From Acidobacteria bacterium SCN 69-37 (GTDB lineage Bacteria; Acidobacteriota; Vicinamibacteria; Vicinamibacterales; SCN-69-37): a DNA stretch of 64,000 nt. The number at the start of each line of letters is the position of its first letter. Positions within the stretch are counted from its first letter, which is position 1. The stretch lies in assembly GCA_001724025.1 (NCBI GenBank), contig MEDJ01000005.1:1-64000 (forward strand). The letters run 5' to 3'. Position numbers and translations under genes: made by a program. The notes under the pieces were generated by a model. The model did no database searches, had not been told where the DNA came from, and was given only the letters and a program-made list of their open reading frames with translations. Below, piece after piece: positions 5,869-42,262 of this stretch.

Positions 5869-6852
5869 ATGAAGCGAGCATTCAGCCTGTGTGCCGCAGC
5901 GCTGGCCGTGGCGATCGCCGCACCCGCGGTTCACGCCGACGTCAAGACCCGCGAGAAGACGACATTCACGCTGGAAGGATTCCTGGGCGGCGTGGTCCGC
6001 GTGTTCGGCGGCCGTGCGGCACGCGAGGGCATCGAGTCGACGGTCGCTGTCAAGGGCGATCGCAAGGCCTCGATCAGCGGCAATACCGGTCAGATCGTCG
6101 ATCTGTCCGCAGAGAAGGTCTACAACCTCGACCTCCGTCGTCGCGAATACCGCGTGACGACCTTCGCCGATCTGCGGGCCGAATTCGAGAAGGCGAAGGC
6201 CGATGCCGAAAAGCAGGCCGAGAACGCCAAGCCCGAGGACAAGGAGCAGATGGAGCAGGCGTCGCGCGAACTCGAGTTCGACGTCGACGTCCGCGAGACG
6301 GGTGAACGCCAGACGCGCCTCGGGCACCAGACCCGCGAGGTGATCCTCACCATCACGGGCCGCGAGAAGGGACGCACGCTCGAGCAGGGCGGCGGCTTCG
6401 TACTGACCAACACGCTCTGGCTCGCGCCGCGCATCGCCGCCCTCGACGAACTGACAGCGTTCGAGCTGCGATACGTGAAGGCCGTGTACGGCGAGTCGAT
6501 CCTCGGCGATGTCCAGCAAATGGCCGGCGTGATGGCCATGTATCCGGCCTTTGCCGGCATGGCGTCACGGATGCAGGAAGAAGGCCACAAGCTCGACGGG
6601 ACGTCGCTGTCGACGACGATGACGTTCGAGGCGGTAAAGAGCGAGGAGCAGATGAAGGCCGCGGCCGGGAGTCAGCAGGACTCGGGCGGTGGCGGCATCG
6701 GCGGGATGCTGGGTCGCCGCATCATGGGGAACCGCGGCGAGCCACAGGCCCGCACCAAGGTGCTGACCACGACGCACGAGATGCTGTCCGTCGATACGAC
6801 GGTGACCGACGCCGACGTGGCGATTCCCGCCAATCTCAAGCTGAAGGATTGA
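5869..6852 (+). CDS. Exported protein of unknown function
   Basis: A 327-residue protein. The signal peptide is clear: MKRAFSLCAAALAVAIAA with cleavage after VHA near residue 23. The mature part begins with a lysine/threonine-rich strand, and has a strongly charged helical section near residues 105-130 rich in K, E and A (EFEKAKADAEKQAENAKPED). A glycine-rich patch (GGGGIGGMLGRR) lies near residue 275. The start ATG is fixed by GGAGG about 8 bases upstream. It follows ispG but with more than 100 bases between. It is likely periplasmic. No enzyme motif was recognised. Confidence 0.75.
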   Translation: MKRAFSLCAAALAVAIAAPAVHADVKTREKTTFTLEGFLGGVVRVFGGRAAREGIESTVAVKGDRKASISGNTGQIVDLSAEKVYNLDLRRREYRVTTFADLRAEFEKAKADAEKQAENAKPEDKEQMEQASRELEFDVDVRETGERQTRLGHQTREVILTITGREKGRTLEQGGGFVLTNTLWLAPRIAALDELTAFELRYVKAVYGESILGDVQQMAGVMAMYPAFAGMASRMQEEGHKLDGTSLSTTMTFEAVKSEEQMKAAAGSQQDSGGGGIGGMLGRRIMGNRGEPQARTKVLTTTHEMLSVDTTVTDADVAIPANLKLKD

Positions 6853-6869
6853 TCGGCGGCCGCCGGCTA

Positions 6870-6894
6870 CCGGCTACCGCCTGTCGGTAGCCGG
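6870..6894. terminator. Hairpin between convergent genes
   Basis: CCGGCTACCG (6870-6879) pairs perfectly with CGGTAGCCGG (6885-6894) around a 5-base loop. A second copy of the left arm sits at 6863-6872. It lies between two convergent genes and probably ends transcription from both. Confidence 0.65.
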
Positions 6895-6904
6895 TCGTCC
6901 ACGC

Positions 6905-9097: not shown

Positions 9098-9508
9098 TCA
9101 GCGGGGTCGTTTCAGCAACACACGGGTGCCGCCGTTGGCGGCAGCGATCACCCCCACCGCTTCCCAGCCCTCGATGCCGGCGACCACCAGCGCCTCGGCC
9201 GGATCCTCGCCGGTCGCGACGGACACGGATCGATACTCCCAGCCCTGCCGCCCTGCCCGGGCAATGACCACCGGCTCTCCCACGACGGTCACCGACGACG
9301 TGCCGACCACGGTCACGGGCTGCGTCTGGCTACCACCCGCCACGACGACCGGTAACGGCTCATTCGGGCCATTCACGATCACGCTCCGTCCCACGACCGG
9401 CATGCCCGGCACGTTTGCCGCCGGCGGCGCCTGCCGCGCCAGCACGCCCGACGACAGCACGATGGCGATGCCTATCCCGATTCCGGCCCCGAGTATCGCT
9501 CTGGTCAT
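9098..9508 (-). CDS. Exported protein with DUF4177-like C-terminus
   Basis: 136 residues. A signal peptide or N-terminal anchor (AILGAGIGIGIAIVLSSGVL) is followed by a Pro/Val-rich stretch. The C-terminal pattern WEYRSVSV...LVVAGIEGWEAVGV is the WEY...GWE arrangement seen in the small DUF4177-like domain. It is probably periplasmic or membrane-anchored. Function unknown. It is divergent from the exported cyclophilin-like gene at 9654. Confidence 0.65.
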   Translation of the reverse strand: MTRAILGAGIGIGIAIVLSSGVLARQAPPAANVPGMPVVGRSVIVNGPNEPLPVVVAGGSQTQPVTVVGTSSVTVVGEPVVIARAGRQGWEYRSVSVATGEDPAEALVVAGIEGWEAVGVIAAANGGTRVLLKRPR

Positions 9509-9653
9509 GACCGCACCTCGCCAGACAGCTTATCGTCACGGCCGAAAGGGCGTAGACTGACGAACTGCCAGCGGATTCGGAGATCTCTGCCCGACATTCG
9601 GGGAGTTCTTCGTGTGTCGGGTTCGGATACGCAGGCACCCATGGAGGTGTCAG

Positions 9654-10205
9654 ATGCTGCAGCCCCGCGTGATCCTCGCGCTCGTCGGCCTGTTCGCGGC
9701 CACCGGTCTTCTTCAGGCCACGCCACAGGCGCCCCCCACACAACCGCCCACCACGCTCGTGATGACCACGGTGCAGGGCGTTGTCGAAATCGAGCTCCTG
9801 CCGGATGCGCCGCGATCGGTGGCACGCGTGCTGGAACTGGTTCAACGCAACTTCTATCGCGGCCTCCGAATCCACCTGGCGCAGCCGAACCTGATCCAGT
9901 TCGGCGATCCGGCCACGCGCAACATGGAGACCATGTCCTCGTGGGGCCACGGCGGCAGCCATCAGCAGCTCGGCTTCAGCGAGGTGGGCAAGCGCCCCTT
10001 CACACGCGGCATCGTCGCGTACGGCTATCCCAGGGGTGAAGGGCCCGAGGCCGCGGACAGTCAGTTGTTCATCCTGCGCGCGAACGCGCCGGCGATGACG
10101 GGGAAGTACGTCGTGATCGGCCGCGTCACGTCGGGCATGGACGTGGTGGACAAACTGAAGATGACCGACATGATCCGGAACATCACGGTCAAGCCGGCGG
10201 CGTGA
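9654..10205 (+). CDS. Exported cyclophilin-like protein with altered active site
   Basis: 183 residues with a signal peptide (VILALVGLFAATGLL). The cyclophilin fold is recognisable: TTVQGVVEIELLPDAPRSV, the FGDP segment, DSQLFI and VIGRVTSGMDVVDKL. The FHR motif that carries the catalytic arginine is IHL here (Leu75), so isomerase activity may be weak or absent. It may act as a periplasmic chaperone-like domain. GGAGG at 9643-9647 selects the ATG at 9654. The next gene begins 6 bases after the stop, so they form an operon. Confidence 0.85.
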   Translation: MLQPRVILALVGLFAATGLLQATPQAPPTQPPTTLVMTTVQGVVEIELLPDAPRSVARVLELVQRNFYRGLRIHLAQPNLIQFGDPATRNMETMSSWGHGGSHQQLGFSEVGKRPFTRGIVAYGYPRGEGPEAADSQLFILRANAPAMTGKYVVIGRVTSGMDVVDKLKMTDMIRNITVKPAA

Positions 10206-32541: not shown

Positions 32542-33615
32542 ATGCCCCCGAAAGTCCGTGTGTCGGATCTGCGCAAGCGATACGGCGCCCTGGAAGCGGT
32601 GGCCGGCATCGACTTCACGATCGAGGACGGTGAGATCTTCGGACTCCTGGGTCCGAATGGCGCCGGCAAGACCACGACGATCGAGTGCGTGCTCGGCCTG
32701 ATCCAGCCCGATGCCGGCACCATCGAGATCTGCGGGCTCGACGCGCGCCGCGAGCCGAGGGCCGTGCGCGAGAAGGTCGGTGCGGCGCTGCAGACCACGG
32801 CCCTGCCCGACCGGATCACGCCGCGCGAGGCACTCGATCTGTTCGGCGCGTTCTACCAGCGGCGCGAGTCGGCCGCCGCCCTGCTCGATCGGTTCTCGCT
32901 GACGACGAAGGCCGACGTGGCCGTCGACACGCTCTCGGGGGGACAAAAGCAGCGTCTCGCGCTGGCGCTCGCCTTCGTCAACGCGCCCGAGCTCGTCTTC
33001 CTCGACGAGCCCACCGCCGGACTCGACGCGCACGCCCGCCGCGAACTCCACGCCGAAATCCAGCAGATGCGCTGCGACGGGCACACGGTCCTGCTGACCA
33101 CGCACGACATGGACGAGGCGGCACTGCTCTGCGACAGGCTGGCCATCATCTCGAAGGGACGCGTGGTGGCCACGGGCCGGCCGCGCGACCTGATCGCCGA
33201 CTCGGCGCGCGTCCAGCAGATCACGTTCACCACCGCCCGGCCGTTTCCCGCGGCGCTGCTCGACGTGCTGCCTGGCGCGTCGGACATGTCCCCCGGGGCT
33301 GAAGCCCCGGGGCTCCGAGAAGAGGGAGACGTGTCCCGGCAGGCAGATCTCAACGGAGCTCCGAGGCTCCGACAGGACGGAGACAAGTCCCCGCAGGCTG
33401 ATCCCGACGGAGCCCCGGGGCTTCGGCCCCGGGGAGACACCGAAATCACTAGCGCCACGCTGCGAACCAGCACGCCGGGCGCCACGCTGCTGGCGCTCGT
33501 CACGGCGCTCGAGGCCCACGGCGTCGGTCTCGACGAACTGCACGTCCGCAAGGCCACGCTCGAGGATGTCTTCGTGGACCTGACCGCCACATCGACCACG
33601 GAGCCGACGACGTGA
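32542..33615 (+). CDS. ABC transporter ATP-binding protein with an in-frame repeat insertion
   Basis: 357 residues. The NBD is complete: Walker A GPNGAGKTT (about 37-45), signature LSGGQKQR, Walker B VFLDEPTAGLD and the His switch LLTTHDMDEA. It belongs to the CcmA/DrrA-type exporters. Between the NBD and its C-terminal part lies a 51-codon insertion (residues 248-298, bases 33283-33435) made of three tandem units of 15, 18 and 18 codons derived from the palindromic repeat found elsewhere in the window. The frame remains open and the C-terminal LHVRKATLEDVFVDLT region is intact. It is translationally coupled (GTGA) to the permease gene. Confidence 0.92.
   Translation: MPPKVRVSDLRKRYGALEAVAGIDFTIEDGEIFGLLGPNGAGKTTTIECVLGLIQPDAGTIEICGLDARREPRAVREKVGAALQTTALPDRITPREALDLFGAFYQRRESAAALLDRFSLTTKADVAVDTLSGGQKQRLALALAFVNAPELVFLDEPTAGLDAHARRELHAEIQQMRCDGHTVLLTTHDMDEAALLCDRLAIISKGRVVATGRPRDLIADSARVQQITFTTARPFPAALLDVLPGASDMSPGAEAPGLREEGDVSRQADLNGAPRLRQDGDKSPQADPDGAPGLRPRGDTEITSATLRTSTPGATLLALVTALEAHGVGLDELHVRKATLEDVFVDLTATSTTEPTT
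33283..33435 (+). repeat. Three tandem units of a palindromic repeat inside the ABC ATPase gene
   Basis: Each unit begins GACrnGTCCC (33283, 33328, 33382) and measures 45, 54 and 54 bases, all multiples of three. Unit 1 holds CCCCGGGGCTGAAGCCCCGG, and the same palindrome and flank recur in the intergenic region at 63060-63091. Unit 3 has a similar palindrome with CTTCGG in the centre. Confidence 0.85.
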
Positions 33616-35282
33616 ACGGCATCTGGCATCAGCTCCGGACCCACCTGACCCTGTATTTCCGGAACCGGATGGCCATGCTCTATGGCTACCTGTTCCCCTC
33701 GGTCTTCCTGCTCGCGTTCTACGTGCTCTATCGCTACGAACGCGTGCCGCTCGTGCGCCACATGGGCGAGTTGCTCACGGTCACCATTCTGGGCGGGGCC
33801 TGCTTCGGCCTGGCGACGACGCTCGTGAGCGAACGCGAGCGCGGGGTGTGGCGTCGGTACCGACTGGCCCCCATCGCCACCGGTGCGATCGTCGTCAGCA
33901 CGCTCGTCGCGCGCTACATCCTGCTGGTCACGGCCGGCCTGCTGCAGATTGCGCTGGCCATGGGCCTGGGCATGCCGCTGCCCGCCCACCCGCTTCATCT
34001 GGTCGTGGCCTTTTCGCTCGCAGCGTTCGCCTTCCTCGGCCTCGGCCTCGTCATCGCGATGCTCGCCGACAACGTGCCGGCCGTGCAGGCGCTCGGCCAG
34101 ACGATTTTCCTGCCGATGCTGATCATCGGCGGCGTGGCCGTGCCGCTGACGAGCCTCCCGGACTGGGCGCTGCACCTGTCGGCCTATTTTCCTGGCCGTT
34201 ACGCGGTCGAGGCGATCCAGGCGACGGTCAACGGCCCGGGACTCGGATCGGTCGGGTTCAGCCTGCTCGCGCTCCTGCTGATTGGCACCGCGGCATGCGT
34301 GGCCGGCGCCGGCATGTTCCGCTGGGACGCCAAGCAGCGATTCGCGACCAGCCACGGCAAGGGCTGGCTGGCCGTCGCGCTGGCCGGCTGGGTCGGCGTC
34401 GGACTGCTGGCCCAGTGGCAGCACCGGATCATCCCGATGGAACTGGCCGCCGAACGCGCAGCCATCGCAGCCGCGGCCAACCGGCCAGCGCCAGCGCCGA
34501 CCGTCCCGGCCGAGGAGCCACCGGCGCCCGCCGGCGCACCCGCATCAGGATCGGATCTCACAGCAGACGAGCACGCATCGGCCGACACGACACCAGCCGC
34601 GTCCCCTGCACCGTCGGAGCCCGCACCAGCGACGCCGGCCCCGACGTCACGCCCCACGCCCGCCGCCATCACGCCGCCGCCCGCACCCGAGCCGGTGCCG
34701 ACGCCGCGCCCAACGGCGCCGTCAGCCCCAGCCGCGCCCACCCCCGCACCGGCCAGGCCCGCCGAATCCACCACGGCCGCTGAACCGGCGCCCTGGGAGA
34801 AGGTCACGCGCGATCAGGTGATGGCCGACCTCGTCTTCGATCGCCTGCCGCCCGATTCCGGCGTCGTCACGCCCATCGCGACGGCGGACCAGGAGCCGCC
34901 CGAGGAAACCTGGACCGATCTCGACGTCCTGTACAACGGGCTCCAGACCTGGGCACCCGGTCGCGTGCCGGACGTCCTCGAACGGACGCGGAATCTGCTG
35001 TTCGTGCCGTCCGTCATCGACGTGTTCCAGTTGCCGACCGAGCCGTACGTCCCGCAGATGGTCTACGACATCCTCGAGCGCGACATCGACAAGGACGTGC
35101 TGATCAAGGTGCTGTACTGGATTGCCGTCCATCCGGACGAAGGCAGCGATGCTGCGGTCGATCAGATGGCCCCGCTCGGCATTCCGAACGGCCCGAGCGA
35201 CATCCAGGAAGTGCGCGGCCGACTCGGGGTCTATGCCGTCAAGCTCATCGGCCGGCTGACAGGGGCGCGACCGGCACGGTGA
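33612..35282 (+). CDS. ABC-2 type permease with Pro-rich linker and extra C-terminal domain
   Basis: 556 residues from a GTG that overlaps the ATPase stop. Residues 1-290 are an ABC-2 (DrrB/YadH-like) permease with six hydrophobic segments and LATTLVSERERGVWRRYRLAP. One more hydrophobic helix follows (WLAVALAGWVGVGLLAQW), then a ~110-residue linker almost only of Ala, Pro, Thr and Ser (about 295-400). The ~155-residue C-terminal domain (VTRDQVMADLVFDRLPPDSG, IDVFQLPTEPYVPQMVYDIL) is unlike ABC-2 permeases. The helix plus linker suggests that this domain sits in the periplasm. Its function is unknown. Confidence 0.88.
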   Translation: MNGIWHQLRTHLTLYFRNRMAMLYGYLFPSVFLLAFYVLYRYERVPLVRHMGELLTVTILGGACFGLATTLVSERERGVWRRYRLAPIATGAIVVSTLVARYILLVTAGLLQIALAMGLGMPLPAHPLHLVVAFSLAAFAFLGLGLVIAMLADNVPAVQALGQTIFLPMLIIGGVAVPLTSLPDWALHLSAYFPGRYAVEAIQATVNGPGLGSVGFSLLALLLIGTAACVAGAGMFRWDAKQRFATSHGKGWLAVALAGWVGVGLLAQWQHRIIPMELAAERAAIAAAANRPAPAPTVPAEEPPAPAGAPASGSDLTADEHASADTTPAASPAPSEPAPATPAPTSRPTPAAITPPPAPEPVPTPRPTAPSAPAAPTPAPARPAESTTAAEPAPWEKVTRDQVMADLVFDRLPPDSGVVTPIATADQEPPEETWTDLDVLYNGLQTWAPGRVPDVLERTRNLLFVPSVIDVFQLPTEPYVPQMVYDILERDIDKDVLIKVLYWIAVHPDEGSDAAVDQMAPLGIPNGPSDIQEVRGRLGVYAVKLIGRLTGARPAR

Positions 35283-35287
35283 GACCT

Positions 35288-35584
35288 CAGGTACGACGGG
35301 TACGACGGGCGACAGGAACCTGATCCTTGCCTTCTTTAATTTAGTGGCGGGCGGTCGATGTTCGCCCGCACAAACGCGCCGGACGTAACGCGGATCCTTG
35401 CTCACTTCAATTAGATGGCGGGTGCTCGATGTTCACCGGCACAAGCGTGCCGGACGTGACGCGGATCCTTGCCCGCTTCATTGATGGTGGACGCTCGATG
35501 TTCACCGGTACGACCGGCGATCACCGCGCGACCCTGCCTGCCAGTTGAAGGTGGTATGTGTCAGGTTCCTGTCGCCCGTCGTAC
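35288..35584. repeat. Inverted-repeat element A with 71-bp tandem repeats inside
   Basis: The outer arms are GTACGACGGGCGACAGGAAC plus CTGA (35300-35323) and its exact complement (35561-35584), a 24-bp perfect inverted repeat. Inside are two 71-bp direct repeats starting GATCCTTGC at 35322 and 35393, and a partial third at 35464. Unit 2 includes the hairpin CCGGCAC-AAGC-GTGCCGG. This fills the gap between the ABC permease and the ECF sigma gene. No ORF in it looks real. Confidence 0.85.
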
Positions 35585-35619
35585 CTGTCGCACCCGTGTC
35601 CTTGTATCATTACCCCCGC

Positions 35620-36243
35620 GTGCCCCTGGTTCCGCGCTTCGAATTCGATGCGGCGTACGTCGAACGCCTCACCAGCGGCGACGAGACGACCGAGCGTCAT
35701 TTCACGGAGTATTTCGGCGATCTCCTCGCGATCAAACTGCGCTCGCGCCTGCGCTCGCCCGCCCTCATCGATGACGTGAAACAGGAGACCTTTCTGCGCG
35801 TGCTGACGACGCTGCGGCGCAAGGGGGGCCTGGTGTCGGCCGGCGGCCTCGGCGCATTCGTCAACACCACCTGCAACAACGTGCTGTTCGAAACCTACAG
35901 GGCCGAAACGCGCCGCCGCCAGAACGTGCCCGAGGACGAGACGCCGCTCGAAGCCCCGACCGCCAGCGTCGAGACGGTGATGCTCGATGCCGACGAGCAC
36001 GCGCTCGTGCGCCGGGCGATCGCCGAATTACCCGCGAAGGACCGCGACCTGCTCCGCTCGCTCTTCTTCGAGGAACGCGACAAGGACGAACTCTGCCGGA
36101 CGCTGGGCGTCGACCGGCAGTACCTGCGCGTGCTGCTGCACCGCGCCAAGGGCCGGTTCCGCACGGCGTTCGCGAGCCTCGACACGGGCGCCGTCGCGTC
36201 CGGCGGCCGCGGTGAAACGTCCGGCCGGGACGATGCACCATGA
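35620..36243 (+). CDS. ECF-type RNA polymerase sigma factor
   Basis: 207 residues from the GTG at 35620. Region 2 is seen around LIDDVKQETFLRVLTTLRRKG with GAFVNTTCNNVLFETYRAE; region 4 has LLRSLFFEERDKDELCRTLGVDRQYLRVLLHRAKGR as its helix-turn-helix. TATCAT (35605-35610) may be the -10 box, close to the start. An upstream in-frame ATG (35545) lies inside element A, so it is unlikely. The gene overlaps or abuts an anti-sigma gene (ATGA at 36240), the common pairing. The targets are unknown; the operon itself is the first guess. Confidence 0.9.
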   Translation: MPLVPRFEFDAAYVERLTSGDETTERHFTEYFGDLLAIKLRSRLRSPALIDDVKQETFLRVLTTLRRKGGLVSAGGLGAFVNTTCNNVLFETYRAETRRRQNVPEDETPLEAPTASVETVMLDADEHALVRRAIAELPAKDRDLLRSLFFEERDKDELCRTLGVDRQYLRVLLHRAKGRFRTAFASLDTGAVASGGRGETSGRDDAP

Positions 36244-36257
36244 AGGAGCAGACGTCC

Positions 36258-36905
36258 ATGGAACACGAAGACGCCGTTCGCACGCTGGCTCCGGAACGTT
36301 ACCTGCTCGGCGAGATGGACGAGCCGGAGCGCGACGCGTTCGAAGCGCACTACTTTGCGTGCGCCATCTGTGCCGAATCGGTGCGGACGGGGACGATCCT
36401 GGCCGACGCGGCACAATCCGGACACGTATCGCCCGGCGTCACCCAGTTCGTGACGGCAATCGCACGTCCGGCGCCGCGGCGCTCGCGCGCGTGGATGCCG
36501 CTGGCCGCGGCCGCCGCGCTCGCGCTCGTCACCGGCTACCAGACGTTCGTCACCATCCCCGGTCTTCGCCGCGCCCTGGACGCCCCGCAGGCGTTGGCGC
36601 CCATCGCTCTGGCGCCTGCGAGTCGCGGCGAGGGGGCGGTCGTCACGCGCGATCGGACGATGGGCAGCATCGCGCTGGCCCTCGACATCAACGCCGATGC
36701 GGCGGCCTCGCGGCTGGTCTATGATTTGCGCACCGACGATGGCGGCGTCGTCCTGTCCGGGCAGGCCCCGGTCCCTCCCCAGGGCACGCCACTGCTGTTG
36801 CTGATACCTGGCACTTCACTGACGTCAGGCCAGTACGTGATCGTCGTACGAGAGGCCGATGCGCCCGGTCGCGAGATCGGGACCTATCGATTCATCGTGC
36901 GATGA
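36258..36905 (+). CDS. Zinc-finger (ZAS-type) anti-sigma factor, membrane-anchored
   Basis: 215 residues. The N-terminal anti-sigma domain has the zinc motif H-x3-C-x2-C (EAHYFACAICAESV). One membrane helix (WMPLAAAAALALVTGYQ) is followed by a ~115-residue periplasmic part ending in a beta-sandwich-like SGQYVIVVREADAPG and TYRFIV. It should hold the ECF sigma factor inactive at the membrane until a periplasmic signal arrives. AAGGAG at 36243-36248 favours the ATG at 36258; an ATG at 36240 overlaps the sigma stop. It is the second gene of the cassette that ends in a CHAT lipoprotein. Confidence 0.85.
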   Translation: MEHEDAVRTLAPERYLLGEMDEPERDAFEAHYFACAICAESVRTGTILADAAQSGHVSPGVTQFVTAIARPAPRRSRAWMPLAAAAALALVTGYQTFVTIPGLRRALDAPQALAPIALAPASRGEGAVVTRDRTMGSIALALDINADAAASRLVYDLRTDDGGVVLSGQAPVPPQGTPLLLLIPGTSLTSGQYVIVVREADAPGREIGTYRFIVR

Positions 36906-36930
36906 CCGTGCTGGCTCAAAAGGAGCCCGC

Positions 36931-37719
36931 ATGGACCTCGCACGCCGCTTCCTGTTCAACGGTTACGCCTGCGCCTACAGCGGCCGCGTGTACCGGCCGA
37001 AGGACATCACGATCCCGTCGCCGGCATCGGCGGCCCTGTCGGTGGCCGGCGGGTTGTCGACCGCCGAGGGCAAGCGTCAGCGATTCCTGCCCTACCTGAG
37101 CGTCGGCAAGTCCGCCGCGTCGGCCAAGGGACAGTTCGACGAACGCAAGCGTGCCGTCGAGATGACACACGGCCGGATCGGCGAAGACGCGCTGACGTCG
37201 TCGACCGTCTGCACGGCCACCACCGAGGATATTTCGATGGACGACGGGCGCTTCAAGGTGAAGTACCTGCACGCTGTCGTCCACGCCTCGAGCCCGTCGG
37301 CGAACAACGAGCCCCCGATTCGTCTGGGCCGGCAGACGGTCATTCGCGGCGTGTCAATCGATGGACACGAACTGGCGGTGACGATCGATCAGAGTTTTCT
37401 GGCCGTCCGATCGTTCGACGCGATCGTGAAGACGGTCGATCGCAAGCGCGCCCCCGTGTTCGAGGCGTCGAAGGAGTGCATCTACACGTCGGTCGTGCGC
37501 GGACTGACGTGGGTCGATCGGCCGCACCCCGACGCGGTGATCGACGGGCACCTGATCCAGGTGCCGGACTTCGGCCGCGTGTACTTCGGCGAGTTGTTCA
37601 TCCAGCGCGCGTCGTGGCGGATGACGCTGCTGCGGGCGCACCTCGGGTCACCCATCGGTCTGCGCGTGGGCTTCGTCGACGTCGGCGCCAACGGGTCGTG
37701 GTACCCGCCCACGACATAG
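36931..37719 (+). CDS. Unidentified 262-residue cytoplasmic protein of the CHAT cassette
   Basis: I do not recognise this protein. The ATG at 36931 has AAAGGAG just upstream. It has no signal peptide or membrane helix. The N-terminal part is RFLFNGYACAYSGRVYRPKD; the rest looks mostly beta-stranded (FKVKYLHAVVHAS, LGRQTVIRGVSIDGHELAV, HLIQVPDFGRVYFGELFI). It ends with LRAHLGSPIGLRVGFVDVG. Its place between the anti-sigma gene (26 bases) and the CHAT gene (3 bases) suggests that it works with them, as a substrate, adaptor or reporter. That is inference only. Its composition is like that of the neighbours. Confidence 0.75.
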   Translation: MDLARRFLFNGYACAYSGRVYRPKDITIPSPASAALSVAGGLSTAEGKRQRFLPYLSVGKSAASAKGQFDERKRAVEMTHGRIGEDALTSSTVCTATTEDISMDDGRFKVKYLHAVVHASSPSANNEPPIRLGRQTVIRGVSIDGHELAVTIDQSFLAVRSFDAIVKTVDRKRAPVFEASKECIYTSVVRGLTWVDRPHPDAVIDGHLIQVPDFGRVYFGELFIQRASWRMTLLRAHLGSPIGLRVGFVDVGANGSWYPPTT

Positions 37720-37722
37720 GCG

Positions 37723-40164
37723 ATGCGGGTCTTCGTCGTGCTGGTCTGGCTGCTCGCCTCGGCGTGCGGCCGGACGACCGTGCCGGACGCAACGCAGACG
37801 TACGAGTCGGCGCGGACGGCCGTGCTGCGCGGCGACCTGCAGTTGGCGACTGCCCTGACCACGCAGGCCCTCGACGCCGTAACGGCCGACGCGCGGGCCA
37901 CGGCGCGACTTCACCTGCTCCAGGCGGAAATCGCGCTGATGCGGCGCGACGTGGACGGGGCCTCTCCGCTGATTGACGCGCCGCTGCCCTCGGGGCCCGG
38001 CTTCGAACCGCTCGAAGCCCGCCGCCTCTACCTGGCCGGATACCGACAGGTGGTGAGGGGCGACATCGCCGGCGCCGTGACCACGCTCGACACGGCCATG
38101 GCACGCGCGTCCGCTGCGGGTGCCGCAGACATCGGCCGCGACGCGGCCAACCTGGCCGGTCAGGCGCTGCTGCGCCTCGGGCGTTTCACGGACGCCGACG
38201 CCCGCCTGCTCGCGGCGCGGCAGGAGGCCCGAGCCGCGGGCGATCACCTGCACGAATCCCTTCTGCTCGGCACGCTCGGCATGGGTCAACTCGTGCGCGA
38301 GCGGTACGACGCTGCGCTCGGCTGGTTCGAGCAGGCCCTCGCCTTCCGCGAATTCGACACGTACATGAGTTACGCCGCCGTGCTGTCGAACGCCGGACTC
38401 TGCTACGCGCGGCTCGGCGAGTTCGATCGGGCGCTGGCCCTGCAGCAGCGCGCGGTGCTGCTGCACGAAGCGCGCAACGTGCCCGCGTACCTGGAGCAGG
38501 CGCTCGGCGAACTCGGCCACACGCACCTGCTGCGCGGCAATGCGGTCGAGGCCGTCGAGTTGCTCGGGCGCGCCCGCGAAGTGGCCATGAAAGCCGGACG
38601 ATCGACCGATGCGGCGCTCTGGCTCGACAGTTCGGCCGCGGCGCTCATCGACCTGCAGCGCTGGGGGGATGCCGACCGGCTCAACGAGGAAGCCGTGACG
38701 CTGAAGCGCCAGCCAGGCGCGTCGCTCGCCCCGAACCTGATCAATCGCGCGCAGATTGCCCAGGGACGCGCGGCGTACGACGAAGCCATCACCGGCTTCC
38801 GCGCGGCGCTTGCCGACGACGAAGCGCCACTGTGGGTGCAGTGGCAGGCGCATGCAGGGCTCGGCAGCGTCTTCATCGGGACGGGCCGGACGGACGAGGG
38901 GCTCCGACAGTTCGAGCAGGCGCTCGCAGCTGTCGACGGTATTCGATCCACGCTGCTCGAACCCGAATACCGCATCACGTTCCTGTCGCGGATGATGCAC
39001 TTCTACCGCGTGTACGTGGACGCGCTCGTCGACGCGCGCCAGCCGCAGCGCGCGCTCGAGGTGGCCGATGCGAGCCGCGCGCGCGTGCTCGCCGAACGCC
39101 ACGGCGCGTCACCGGGCGCGCGCTTGTCGGCTTCTGCCCTCGTGACGCGGACCCGACGCGCCGGCGCCACGGCCGTCGCCTATTGGCTTGGCCCCGCGCG
39201 GTCGTTCGCCTGGATCGTCGACGGCCGCGGCGTCCGGCTCGTCCCGCTGCCGCCGGCCGCGGAGATCGATCGACTCGTGGCGGCACACCGCGCGTTCATC
39301 GAGCGCAGCCTTGGCGATCCGCGCCGCGTCTCCTCAGCGCCCGGCGACGCGCTGGCCGCCGCCGTCCTGGCGCCGGTGCTGCCCTATGTCCCCACAGGCG
39401 GCCGCGTCATCGTGGTACCGGACGGCAGCCTCCATGGCGTCAACCTCGAAACGCTGCCCGTGGGCGCGGACCGCCGGTACTGGATCGAGGACGTCACGAT
39501 CACCGTGGCCCCCGCGCTCGCGCTGGCCGGCGCACCGCACGCCACGCCTCCGCCGTCGTCGATGCTGCTCGTGGGTGACGCGCTCGATGCGGGCCAGGGC
39601 CTGGGCCGACTGCAATACGCCTCCGCCGAAATCGACGGCATCCGCCAGGCATTCGCACACACGCCGATGGTCATCCAGCGCGGCGCCGACGCCTCGCCGC
39701 GGGCGTTCCTCGCCGGATCACCGGGCCGGTTCTCCGCGATCCACTTCACGGCGCACGCCACGCCGAACGCGCAGAGTCCGCTCGATTCGTCGATCGAACT
39801 CTCGCCGGGCCCCGACGGCATCTTCAAGCTCTACGCGCGCGACATCGCGCAGCTGGCACTCGGTGCCGACCTGGTCACGATCTCGGCGTGTCGCAGCGCC
39901 GGCGATCGCGCCTACAGCGGCGAAGGACTCGTCGGCCTGGCGTGGGCGTTCATGCGGGCCGGCGCCGGGCACGTGGTGGCCGGCCTGTGGGACGTCGACG
40001 ACCAGTCGACGGCCACGCTGATGACCGACACCTACACGCAGCTGGCCTCCGGCCTGTCGCCCGCCGACGCGCTGCGTGCCGCGAAGCTCCACCTCATCGC
40101 CGCCGGCGGCAACTTCGCCAAGCCGTACTACTGGGCGCCGTTCCAGGTGTTCGTCGCACGGTAG
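37723..40164 (+). CDS. TPR-CHAT domain lipoprotein (caspase-like peptidase)
   Basis: 813 residues. The N-terminus VFVVLVWLLASAC is a lipoprotein signal (lipid at Cys15). Residues ~30-450 hold about ten TPR-like helical repeats (YDAALGWFEQALAF, GEFDRALALQQRAVLL). The C-terminal CHAT domain (about 520-813) has the His of HFTAHA (His678) and the Cys of TISACRSAG (Cys723), the catalytic pair of this caspase-like clan. It ends with the usual LWDVDDQSTATLM and LIAAGGNFAKPYYWAPFQVF. It is expected in the periplasm, anchored to a membrane, where TPRs could recruit a protein to be cut. It is the last gene before element B. Confidence 0.92.
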   Translation: MRVFVVLVWLLASACGRTTVPDATQTYESARTAVLRGDLQLATALTTQALDAVTADARATARLHLLQAEIALMRRDVDGASPLIDAPLPSGPGFEPLEARRLYLAGYRQVVRGDIAGAVTTLDTAMARASAAGAADIGRDAANLAGQALLRLGRFTDADARLLAARQEARAAGDHLHESLLLGTLGMGQLVRERYDAALGWFEQALAFREFDTYMSYAAVLSNAGLCYARLGEFDRALALQQRAVLLHEARNVPAYLEQALGELGHTHLLRGNAVEAVELLGRAREVAMKAGRSTDAALWLDSSAAALIDLQRWGDADRLNEEAVTLKRQPGASLAPNLINRAQIAQGRAAYDEAITGFRAALADDEAPLWVQWQAHAGLGSVFIGTGRTDEGLRQFEQALAAVDGIRSTLLEPEYRITFLSRMMHFYRVYVDALVDARQPQRALEVADASRARVLAERHGASPGARLSASALVTRTRRAGATAVAYWLGPARSFAWIVDGRGVRLVPLPPAAEIDRLVAAHRAFIERSLGDPRRVSSAPGDALAAAVLAPVLPYVPTGGRVIVVPDGSLHGVNLETLPVGADRRYWIEDVTITVAPALALAGAPHATPPPSSMLLVGDALDAGQGLGRLQYASAEIDGIRQAFAHTPMVIQRGADASPRAFLAGSPGRFSAIHFTAHATPNAQSPLDSSIELSPGPDGIFKLYARDIAQLALGADLVTISACRSAGDRAYSGEGLVGLAWAFMRAGAGHVVAGLWDVDDQSTATLMTDTYTQLASGLSPADALRAAKLHLIAAGGNFAKPYYWAPFQVFVAR

Positions 40165-40166
40165 CA

Positions 40167-40520
40167 AGAGATCAGGTACGACGCGTGCGACAGGTACGAC
40201 GGGCGAGTGGAGCCCCCGGGGCACTCGCCCCGGGGGGACTATCAGGTCAGGGACGACAGACGTCAGGACTGAGCTGGGACACGACCGGTCATCGAAGATA
40301 CGGAGAACGCCATCACCGGTGACCGTGGATCCGTGCGCGCCGTGTGCGGCACTGCACACGAACAGCAGACGCGAGCAAGGACGGGCGACAGCCCCCATAC
40401 GGCGATCGTCCGGAGCAGCGGAATGGCCCCCCCGCAACTGAAAGACAGTCCCCCCGGGGCGAGTGCCCCGGGGGCTCCGGTCGCCTGTCGTCCCCGTCGT
40501 ACCTGTCGTACCTGATCTCT
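40167..40520. repeat. Inverted-repeat element B (74-base arms)
   Basis: The left arm 40167-40240 and right arm 40447-40520 are complementary: the outer 16 and inner 32 bases match exactly and the middle is diverged. The arms combine AGAGATCAGGTACGAC, GTACGAC-type units also found in element A, and a palindrome GGAGCCCCCGGGGCACTCGC. About 206 bases lie between the arms, with nothing coding. No transposase or clear target duplication is seen. The length of about 354 bp would suit a MITE. Confidence 0.85.
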
Positions 40521-40567
40521 CTGTAACGCCTCCGCGTCATGTCGCACTACACGTGCGAGGAGGCGAC

Positions 40568-40924
40568 GTGGTCCAGTTCAGGGCATCCAGCGACATCGTG
40601 GTGTGGACGGGCGGTCTGCGCAGCCAGGCACTGGCGGCCGATCTCCGCTCCCGCCGCCGCACGATTTACGCATCGACTCCCTGCTCACACTTCAGCGGAC
40701 GCGTGGTCGACGCGACGGGGCGCGCCATCGAAGACGCGACGGTGACCGTGCCGCGCCACGCGATGTCGGCGCGGACCGACGATGGCGGCCGTTTCCGGCT
40801 GCCGCCGCTGCCCACGCAGGAACCGACGACGCTGTGGGTCTTCGCGAACGACCGACAGCAGCAGTATGAAATCGTCCAGGCCGGCGGCCGGTCCGCTGGC
40901 GTGATCATCCAGTTCGATCAGTGA
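40568..40924 (+). CDS. Carboxypeptidase-regulatory-like domain protein
   Basis: 118 residues from a GTG with GAGGAGG at 40557-40563. The motif FSGRVVDATGRAIEDATVTV followed by ARTDDGGRFRLPPLP is the carboxypeptidase-regulatory (transthyretin-like) beta-sandwich. No signal peptide, so it is probably cytoplasmic. It lies right after element B. It may belong to the CHAT cassette, since such small domains are common next to CHAT and ECF genes. In-frame translation upstream would read through the repeat and is unlikely. Confidence 0.75.
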   Translation: MVQFRASSDIVVWTGGLRSQALAADLRSRRRTIYASTPCSHFSGRVVDATGRAIEDATVTVPRHAMSARTDDGGRFRLPPLPTQEPTTLWVFANDRQQQYEIVQAGGRSAGVIIQFDQ

Positions 40925-41035
40925 CCGCCGTATCGATCACCTGATCGTTCCGCCCGCAGCCCACCCCACGCGCCCTCCACCACCGCGGCGCCGGAGCCTC
41001 ACCATCCGGCGCTGCCCGCCCTTCGCGACACCGCC

Positions 41036-41110
41036 CCGTATCGTGGCCCTCGTAGCCTCGTGGCCCTCGTAGCCATCACAGTCTGCGTAGCCCAGTGGCC
41101 TTGTAGCCCG
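41036..41110. repeat. Degenerate CGTAGCC/CGTGGCC repeats
   Basis: The stretch is built of CGTAGCCTCGTGGCCC-type units, with at least six CGTAGCC or CGTGGCC copies. The same 16-mer occurs at 63105-63138, also just past the 3' end of a minus-strand gene. The rest of 40925-41119 holds nothing recognisable. Confidence 0.7.
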
Positions 41111-41119
41111 ACCTTTTCT

Positions 41120-42262
41120 CTACTGCACCCTCACGAAGGCCATGCCGTCCGGGTTGTCCTCGGCCGCGATCGTCTTCACGACCGTCCACGAGTCCGGATC
41201 GATGATGGAGATCAGATCGTGCGCCATGGCCGTCATGTAGACGCGACCATTGGCCGGGTTGACGAGCAATGCGCCGGCGCCGCTGCCGAGGTTCTCGGTG
41301 ATGGCGCCTACCACCGCGCGCGACGCCACATCGATCTTCCACGCCCGCAGGTTGCCGCCCACCGGCCCGCCGGGGACTGCGGCGGGAGCGCCCTGGCGTG
41401 CGCCACCCGGCGCGCCGGCCGCACCGGGACCGCCACCGCGGCGAGCCCCGCCCCCGCCACGCGGTCCGGCCGGTGCGGATCCCATCACGTAGACGAACCG
41501 TCCGTCGGCGCTGTAGGCGCTGACGAACGGACTGCCGTCCACGTCCACGGTGAAGTCCGGTGTGCCGTCGATGCGGAAGAACGCCACCTGACGCGCCTGG
41601 CCGAGGTTCGTCACGAACTGCTGCTGATCCGGGCTGATGACGATGCGCTGGTTGCTCGTCTCCGTGGGCACGGTCTTCGCCACGCGCCGGCCGGGCACGT
41701 CGACGATCGAGATCGTGCGTCCCATGACGTTGCTCGTGACGATGGTCCGCTCGTCGGCCGACAGCGCGATCATGTGTGTCGTATTCGAGCCTGTCGGGAC
41801 GGTGCCGGTGATCTGGCGCGTCTCGGGATCGATCACGAGGATCGATTCCTTCAGCTCGGCCGTCACGTAGATCGTGCCGCTCGTCCTGCCAACCTGCACG
41901 TGGTGCGGCCGCTTGTAGTCGCCCGTGTCGAGCGTGTAGACGGTCTGGCAGTCCGACGTGCGGATGAAGTGGATCTCGTGTTCGTCGGTGCCCGGCTGCC
42001 CGACGGCTGAACTGCCATACGTCGGCACGTACGCCATGCGGCCGTCGGGCGAGAACTCGCCCTCGTGCGGTGCCACGCCCAGGTTCGCGGAGCGGCAGTG
42101 CAGGCGATCGGTCTCGGCGTCGTAGAGCGCCATGCCAGGCTGCTGCTTCGAGACGACCATCAACAGATATCGCGGGGTTGGCGCGGGCGCCTGCGCGGCG
42201 GCAGACACGGTCGTGGCCACCAGGGCCACCCCGACCAATCCCAGGGTGAATCGTACGCGCAT
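41120..42262 (-). CDS. YncE-like beta-propeller protein, exported
   Basis: 380 residues with a signal peptide (VGVALVATTVSAAAQ). It contains several ~40-residue YVTN-type repeats (IYVTAELKESILVIDPETRQ, ALSADERTIVTSNVMGRTIS, RVYMTAMAHDLISIIDPDS). A run of Gly, Ala, Arg and Pro (about residues 266-300) interrupts a blade. Such propellers are periplasmic and often associate with quinoprotein or cytochrome systems. It may bind a ligand without catalysis. It is divergent from the GntR regulator. Start: ATG at 42262, or 42265 one codon upstream. Confidence 0.88.
   Translation of the reverse strand: MRVRFTLGLVGVALVATTVSAAAQAPAPTPRYLLMVVSKQQPGMALYDAETDRLHCRSANLGVAPHEGEFSPDGRMAYVPTYGSSAVGQPGTDEHEIHFIRTSDCQTVYTLDTGDYKRPHHVQVGRTSGTIYVTAELKESILVIDPETRQITGTVPTGSNTTHMIALSADERTIVTSNVMGRTISIVDVPGRRVAKTVPTETSNQRIVISPDQQQFVTNLGQARQVAFFRIDGTPDFTVDVDGSPFVSAYSADGRFVYVMGSAPAGPRGGGGARRGGGPGAAGAPGGARQGAPAAVPGGPVGGNLRAWKIDVASRAVVGAITENLGSGAGALLVNPANGRVYMTAMAHDLISIIDPDSWTVVKTIAAEDNPDGMAFVRVQ

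Follow-up and report, generated by a model that had tools for sequence, protein, structure and literature searches.

In Myxococcus xanthus, the extracytoplasmic function (ECF) sigma factor DdvS, which controls an antiphage island (PMC12288465), becomes active upon inactivation of DdvA, its anti-sigma factor (PMC4374960), and the DdvA structures 8rot and 8rw5 show a TPR-CHAT-type module within the anti-sigma protein itself. In the type III-E CRISPR Craspase, a TPR-CHAT protease, Csx29, is encoded alongside an ECF-like sigma factor and Csx30, the inhibitor of this factor, and controls the sigma factor by cutting Csx30 and thereby freeing it (PMC10028731). We describe here a four-gene operon located in a stretch of 64,000 nucleotides (the window; contig MEDJ01000005.1, positions 1 to 64,000), part of the 4.43-Mb genome of Acidobacteria bacterium SCN 69-37, and coding for an ECF sigma factor (SIG), a class I anti-sigma factor (ANTI), a 262-residue protein (U262) and a TPR-CHAT protein predicted to be exported. 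Judged by their shared occurrence and order, kept across many soil Acidobacteriota, the four genes form one conserved unit, and we hold at about even confidence that they constitute a single envelope-to-transcription switch, a split version of the DdvA type with an intact CHAT dyad and a U262 module.

The four genes, like all the features located within them below, lie on the forward strand. SIG (35620..36243, GTG start, ~207 aa) matched TIGR02937 (E 1.3e-13) and Sigma70_r4_2 (E 6.9e-5), ANTI (36240..36905, 221 aa) matched zf-HC2 above the cut-off (E 1.1e-4), and the TPR-CHAT gene (37723..40164, 813 aa) matched Pfam CHAT (PF12770, E 1e-48) and TPR_12 (E 1.2e-13). Between ANTI and the TPR-CHAT gene, U262 (36931..37719, 262 aa) was characterized by its AlphaFold2 (AF2) model and its NF040603 relatives as an all-beta, barrel-like protein devoid of a signal peptide. 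SIG and ANTI overlap by 4 bases, and gaps of 25 and 3 bases separate ANTI from U262 and U262 from the CHAT gene, respectively. An earlier sequence-only reading of this DNA, made with no database search, had called four tightly spaced genes, and coordinates and family matches confirmed all four of these calls. A search against Rfam gave no match. A conserved ECF-type promoter upstream of the operon was considered and rejected; weak motif pairs, probably driven by close relatives, were present in 4 of 23 loci versus 3 in shuffled sequences.

A search with U262 among 193 genomes of the class was positive in 11 of them, and most of their neighbourhoods showed sigma factor, anti-sigma factor, U262 and CHAT genes in the same order. 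Across the phylum, the U262 profile was positive in 24 of 396 genomes; exactly these 24 genomes gave CHAT profile scores of at least 485 bits, the next CHAT protein scoring 323 bits, which is a sharp gap. The full four-gene order on one strand, with the SIG homologue first, was found in 22 representative loci belonging to several classes of Acidobacteriota, and the sequence-only reading, which had proposed looking for the 262-residue protein beside CHAT and ECF genes in other genomes, is thus upheld on this point. The four genes were the only families common to at least 4 of 28 neighbourhoods, all other clusters being shadow open reading frames (ORFs). Relatives in named collections come from Acidobacteriota metagenome-assembled genomes, Vicinamibacterales among them. 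Pairwise tree distances among the four genes were correlated (r 0.60-0.85), the observed value being reached in 0 of 2000 permutations, and locus L089, from another class, was joined to L054 in all four gene trees (support 0.80-1.0), which suggests that the set moved or descended together.

Departures from this arrangement were of several kinds. Loci L090 and L091 carry U262, CHAT and anti-sigma genes with no adjoining sigma gene, L053 carries U262 and CHAT with no sigma or anti-sigma gene found, U262 is inverted in L106, and the U262 of L147, much diverged, was recognised by eye. L047 and L050 contain remnants or single genes and are probably decaying cassettes: the first holds a U262 gene (5980-6783) followed by a CHAT remnant (6821-6895), and the second (9380-10198) a U262 gene with no partners, in a genome (G069) that also harbours a complete cassette (L055). 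Finally, L151, L153 and L156, from other Acidobacteriota lineages, contain sigma, anti-sigma and TPR-CHAT genes with no U262, so that these three genes form the older or wider core, and the link within this core is shown independently of U262.

SIG possesses sigma regions 2 and 4 and adjoins a gene for a membrane anti-sigma factor with the HxxxCxxC motif, which identifies an ECF sigma factor paired with a class I zinc-binding anti-sigma (ZAS) protein. ANTI is organised into an N-terminal zinc-containing ZAS domain, one transmembrane segment and a C-terminal domain of ~115 aa. The zinc motif H37-x3-C41-x2-C44 (36348..36371) is invariant in the alignment A3, and the predicted transmembrane segment (about residues 84-103, 36489..36548), located by sequence inspection, is a hydrophobic stretch kept in the same alignment. 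Profile matches of ANTI to the ZAS domain of RslA (3hug, E 0.006) and to CopC (E 0.002) were both weak; the similarity to CopC concerns the outer domain, which is conserved. No homology was found between U262 and ANTI.

The TPR-CHAT protein begins with a signal segment, MRVFVVLVWLLASAC (37723..37767), a hydrophobic N-terminus found in nearly all homologues and ending at a candidate lipidated residue, Cys15, which is invariant in the six-sequence alignment A6. Most CHAT homologues likewise have a cysteine closing the hydrophobic N-terminus, a few resembling ordinary signal peptides instead. The catalytic residues assigned by sequence, His678 (codon 39754..39756) and Cys723 (codon 39889..39891), are conserved as His and Cys in 26/26 CHAT proteins, as is characteristic of the CHAT family. 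The AF2 model had a predicted local distance difference test (pLDDT) score of 82.8; in Foldseek it matched first DdvA (8rw5, E 1e-16, TM-score 0.46), then Csx29 of Craspase (E 5e-15) and then separase, and VIA-align superposed it on a Craspase TPR-CHAT with a Z of 27 across 513 residues. Searched against PDB sequences, the CHAT domain alone matched the DdvA chain best (E 9.5e-4). Sequence and fold are therefore in agreement with the competent CHAT active site that the sequence-only reading's proposal required, and its parallel with Csx29 holds at the fold level, DdvA being closer. The defence library returned a weak TPR match and nothing else. Other large TPR-CHAT genes were encountered in Acidobacteriota: one, larger than that of the cassette, stands directly 3' of it in genome G146 (L046:12946-16422), and many of ~800-1300 codons, with no sigma neighbours, occur among the lower-tier CHAT loci, including L163-L174.

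In gene content the operon corresponds to a DdvA divided in two whose CHAT domain is intact, and an exported TPR-CHAT protein acting on the ANTI outer domain and thereby freeing SIG is its most likely reading. In the resting cell, ANTI would keep SIG at the inner membrane through its cytoplasmic end, which contains the zinc, and its opposite end would lie beyond the cytoplasm. An envelope signal would be sensed through the TPR superhelix of the TPR-CHAT protein, which would be exported and probably carry a lipid anchor. This protein would act on the outer domain of ANTI, most likely by cutting it, and further intramembrane proteolysis, as for RseA, would then release SIG. Cleavage of ANTI by CHAT would be spatially possible in this arrangement. 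As a fourth, dedicated component, U262 would probably serve as a partner or output in the cytoplasm, and its C-terminal tail would be recognised by another protein.

Several points weigh against this switch. U262 has no signal peptide and presumably resides in a compartment other than that of the exported CHAT protein, which leaves its presence unexplained: it would either have its role on the inner side or leave the cell by an unrecognised route. No obvious cut site was seen in the outer domain of ANTI, and no conserved autoregulatory promoter was found upstream of the operon in the 23 loci. The resemblance to DdvA, strong in fold, is weak in sequence, and the link between CHAT and ANTI is drawn from this resemblance and from synteny. 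The co-occurrence does not amount to a probability, since linked loci served to build both the U262 and the CHAT profile and the genomes cannot be counted as independent.

The AF2 model of U262 is confident (pLDDT 87.7) and all-beta, with a barrel-like shape. No clear fold match to it was found in the PDB, the best hits being OMPLA in Foldseek (E 6e-3, TM-score 0.18) and a Z of 4.5 with VIA, which does not prove a new fold; a PDB sequence search with U262 yielded chance matches only. The window U262 itself does not match the choice-of-anchor P family (NCBIfam NF040603), but homologues at the same position in other loci score above its curated cut-off of 27 bits (L090, 39.7; L105, 33.3; L117, 33.1; L093, 27.8), cover the first two thirds of the model and are recovered at the U262 coordinates when genomes are scanned with NF040603. 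Profile-profile comparison with 12 true acidobacterial choice-of-anchor P members placed two sets of U262 proteins in collinear register with them: P was 1.8e-6 for a divergent set and 4.9e-4 for the set around the window. These matches point to U262 as a distant relative of choice-of-anchor P proteins, and the sequence-only reading, which was right about the gene, no longer holds in calling its product unidentified. All 12 true members examined have Sec-type signal segments, whereas no Sec signal peptide was found in any U262 homologue, and the U262 proteins have an NG...P tail at the C-terminus. In L116 and L117, the upstream stop lies just three codons before the U262 start, leaving no space for a signal peptide. 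U262 is most simply seen as a cytoplasmic offshoot of a secreted family, probably located in the cytoplasm and, on that account, not an obvious CHAT substrate.

The C-terminal tail of U262 (N254-G255...WYP, 37690..37716) was defined by homologue comparison. NG is present in the last 13 residues of 18/25 homologues and P in the last four of 19/25, a conservation maintained despite an overall identity of ~30%. As this tail is encoded beside a TPR protein, we infer a model in which it may be bound.

The same tail is central to an alternative that we consider possible, if unlikely, in which U262 itself is the substrate of CHAT: it would exit the cytoplasm by an unrecognised route and have its tail bound and cut, as in gasdermin-like or Csx30-like protease-substrate pairs, the sigma and anti-sigma factors only controlling expression. 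U262 stands directly 5' of CHAT in nearly all loci, the two stay paired where the sigma or anti-sigma gene is missing or moved (L053, L090), the tail is kept at near 30% overall identity and the relatives of U262 are secreted, all of which speak for a substrate; TPR superhelices, moreover, often bind C-terminal tails. Set against this are the lack of a Sec signal peptide in every homologue, with no upstream room for one in L116 and L117, and the lack of any Pfam or PADLOC gasdermin match, the all-beta fold of U262 not being recognisably that of a gasdermin.

A related and rather doubtful proposal takes the operon as a regulatory or self-recognition system, in which the exported TPR-CHAT protein and U262 would be a protease-ligand pair read via the NG...P tail and the sigma and anti-sigma factors would report the outcome to transcription; as part of the same proposal, U262 would have been recruited from secreted surface proteins through loss of the signal peptide. 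We likewise think it improbable that TPR-CHAT is a non-proteolytic sensor, whose TPR ligand would alter its contact with the ANTI outer domain and free the sigma factor allosterically. DdvA, with its TPR-CHAT-type region in the anti-sigma factor itself, offers a precedent in which CHAT may be a sensor scaffold, but the invariance of His and Cys and their surroundings in 26/26 proteins across classes is hard to explain other than by catalysis.

The sequence-only reading had further noticed that the block is flanked by two inverted-repeat elements, A and B, and had taken this as a hint of a cassette moving as a unit. Both elements exist at these positions and, from repeat comparison, lie outside the system (no strand assigned). 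Element A (35288..35597) has arms at 35290-35339 and 35545-35594 with 82% complementarity, and in its interior (35322-35516) a 71-bp unit is repeated in tandem, with two copies that are 80% similar to each other and an incomplete third. Element B (40167..40520) has arms at 40167-40243 and 40444-40520 with 88% complementarity. Neither element is peculiar to the cassette: BLAST matches element B 78 times across the genome, in which the 16-mer GTACGACGGGTACGAC has 25 exact copies, compared with 0 for the reversed control. The GTACGACGG(n)-type inverted-repeat family to which they belong is dispersed, being common in the window genome and in G094 of the same family (68 matches with at most one mismatch), and absent in the congener G095 and other relatives tested. 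A RAYT-type transposase (Y1_Tnp) was rejected as the mover of these repeats; one such gene is present in the window genome, yet G094 has its 68 repeat matches and no Y1_Tnp.

In G095, the cassette occupies the same syntenic site with neither A nor B; its flanks match the window at 33474-35283 upstream and from 41135 downstream, and ~20 bases separate the ABC permease gene from the sigma gene. The two congeners differ in the flank directly 3' of the cassette (40521-41130 versus L045:6616-7508), where the window has a carboxypeptidase-regulatory-like ORF and G095 a rhodanese-like gene together with small ORFs; both outer flanks are syntenic. Because the repeats are dispersed and the G095 cassette lacks them, they came in separately from the cassette, or disappeared in G095, and do not mark the limits of the cassette. 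That the two elements delimit a mobile cassette is accordingly very improbable, in spite of their position on both sides of the genes, the patchy occurrence in 11 of 193 genomes of the class and a grouping of L089 with L054 compatible with an old transfer of the whole set: 25 further repeat loci (~3 kb each, with some overlap) contain none of the four cassette genes, and PLSDB plasmids gave no U262 match. The repeats are refuted as cassette borders, their scatter over the genome being an outcome that the sequence-only reading had itself named as counting against mobility, and an old horizontal transfer of the bare operon is possible. As for chance adjacency, acidobacterial genomes contain ECF, anti-sigma and CHAT genes in large numbers, but an identical order in 22 loci with no other conserved neighbour, and a discrete CHAT subfamily coinciding exactly with U262, already refute it and leave it a negligible probability.

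Returning to the envelope-to-transcription switch, each of its parts belongs to a known family and its logic is like that of known protease-controlled anti-sigma factors; the combination is apparently undescribed, and no paper joining CHAT, ECF and Acidobacteria was found in open-access full text, where absence is no proof. To our knowledge, few of the CHAT proteases abundant in bacteria have a known partner, and a discrete CHAT subfamily tied gene for gene across a phylum to a sigma factor, its inhibitor and U262 makes the partner question directly testable. The operons with sigma, anti-sigma and TPR-CHAT genes and no U262 offer a wider pool of CHAT-linked ECF switches.

The logic proposed here is that of the RseA/DegS and RsiW-type systems, in which a membrane anti-sigma factor is attacked at its outer domain by a protease of the envelope; there the site-1 protease is a serine or other protease, whereas here it would be a CHAT protease of clan CD, the cleavage being a proposal. 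Craspase differs in being a cytoplasmic complex, while the CHAT protein of the operon is predicted to be exported, in having Csx30 as inhibitor in place of a zf-HC2 ZAS membrane protein, and in having no counterpart of U262. In line with the sequence-only reading, no sign of a CRISPR system was seen: no spaced repeat array was detected in 33.5-42.5 kb and the 28 loci share only the four genes, Cas7-11 not having been searched for by model. DdvS/DdvA is alike in pairing an ECF sigma factor with a transmembrane anti-sigma partner and in tying a TPR-CHAT-type fold to the anti-sigma factor. DdvA is, however, a single polypeptide, whereas the ZAS anti-sigma factor, with its small outer domain, and TPR-CHAT are encoded by separate genes in all loci examined; compared with DdvA, the operon has a conserved CHAT dyad and an added U262. 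Seen alongside DdvA and Csx29, it suggests a repeated coupling of TPR-CHAT proteins to ECF sigma control: within CRISPR, by fusion with an anti-sigma factor and, in the present operon, as an envelope switch that stands alone.

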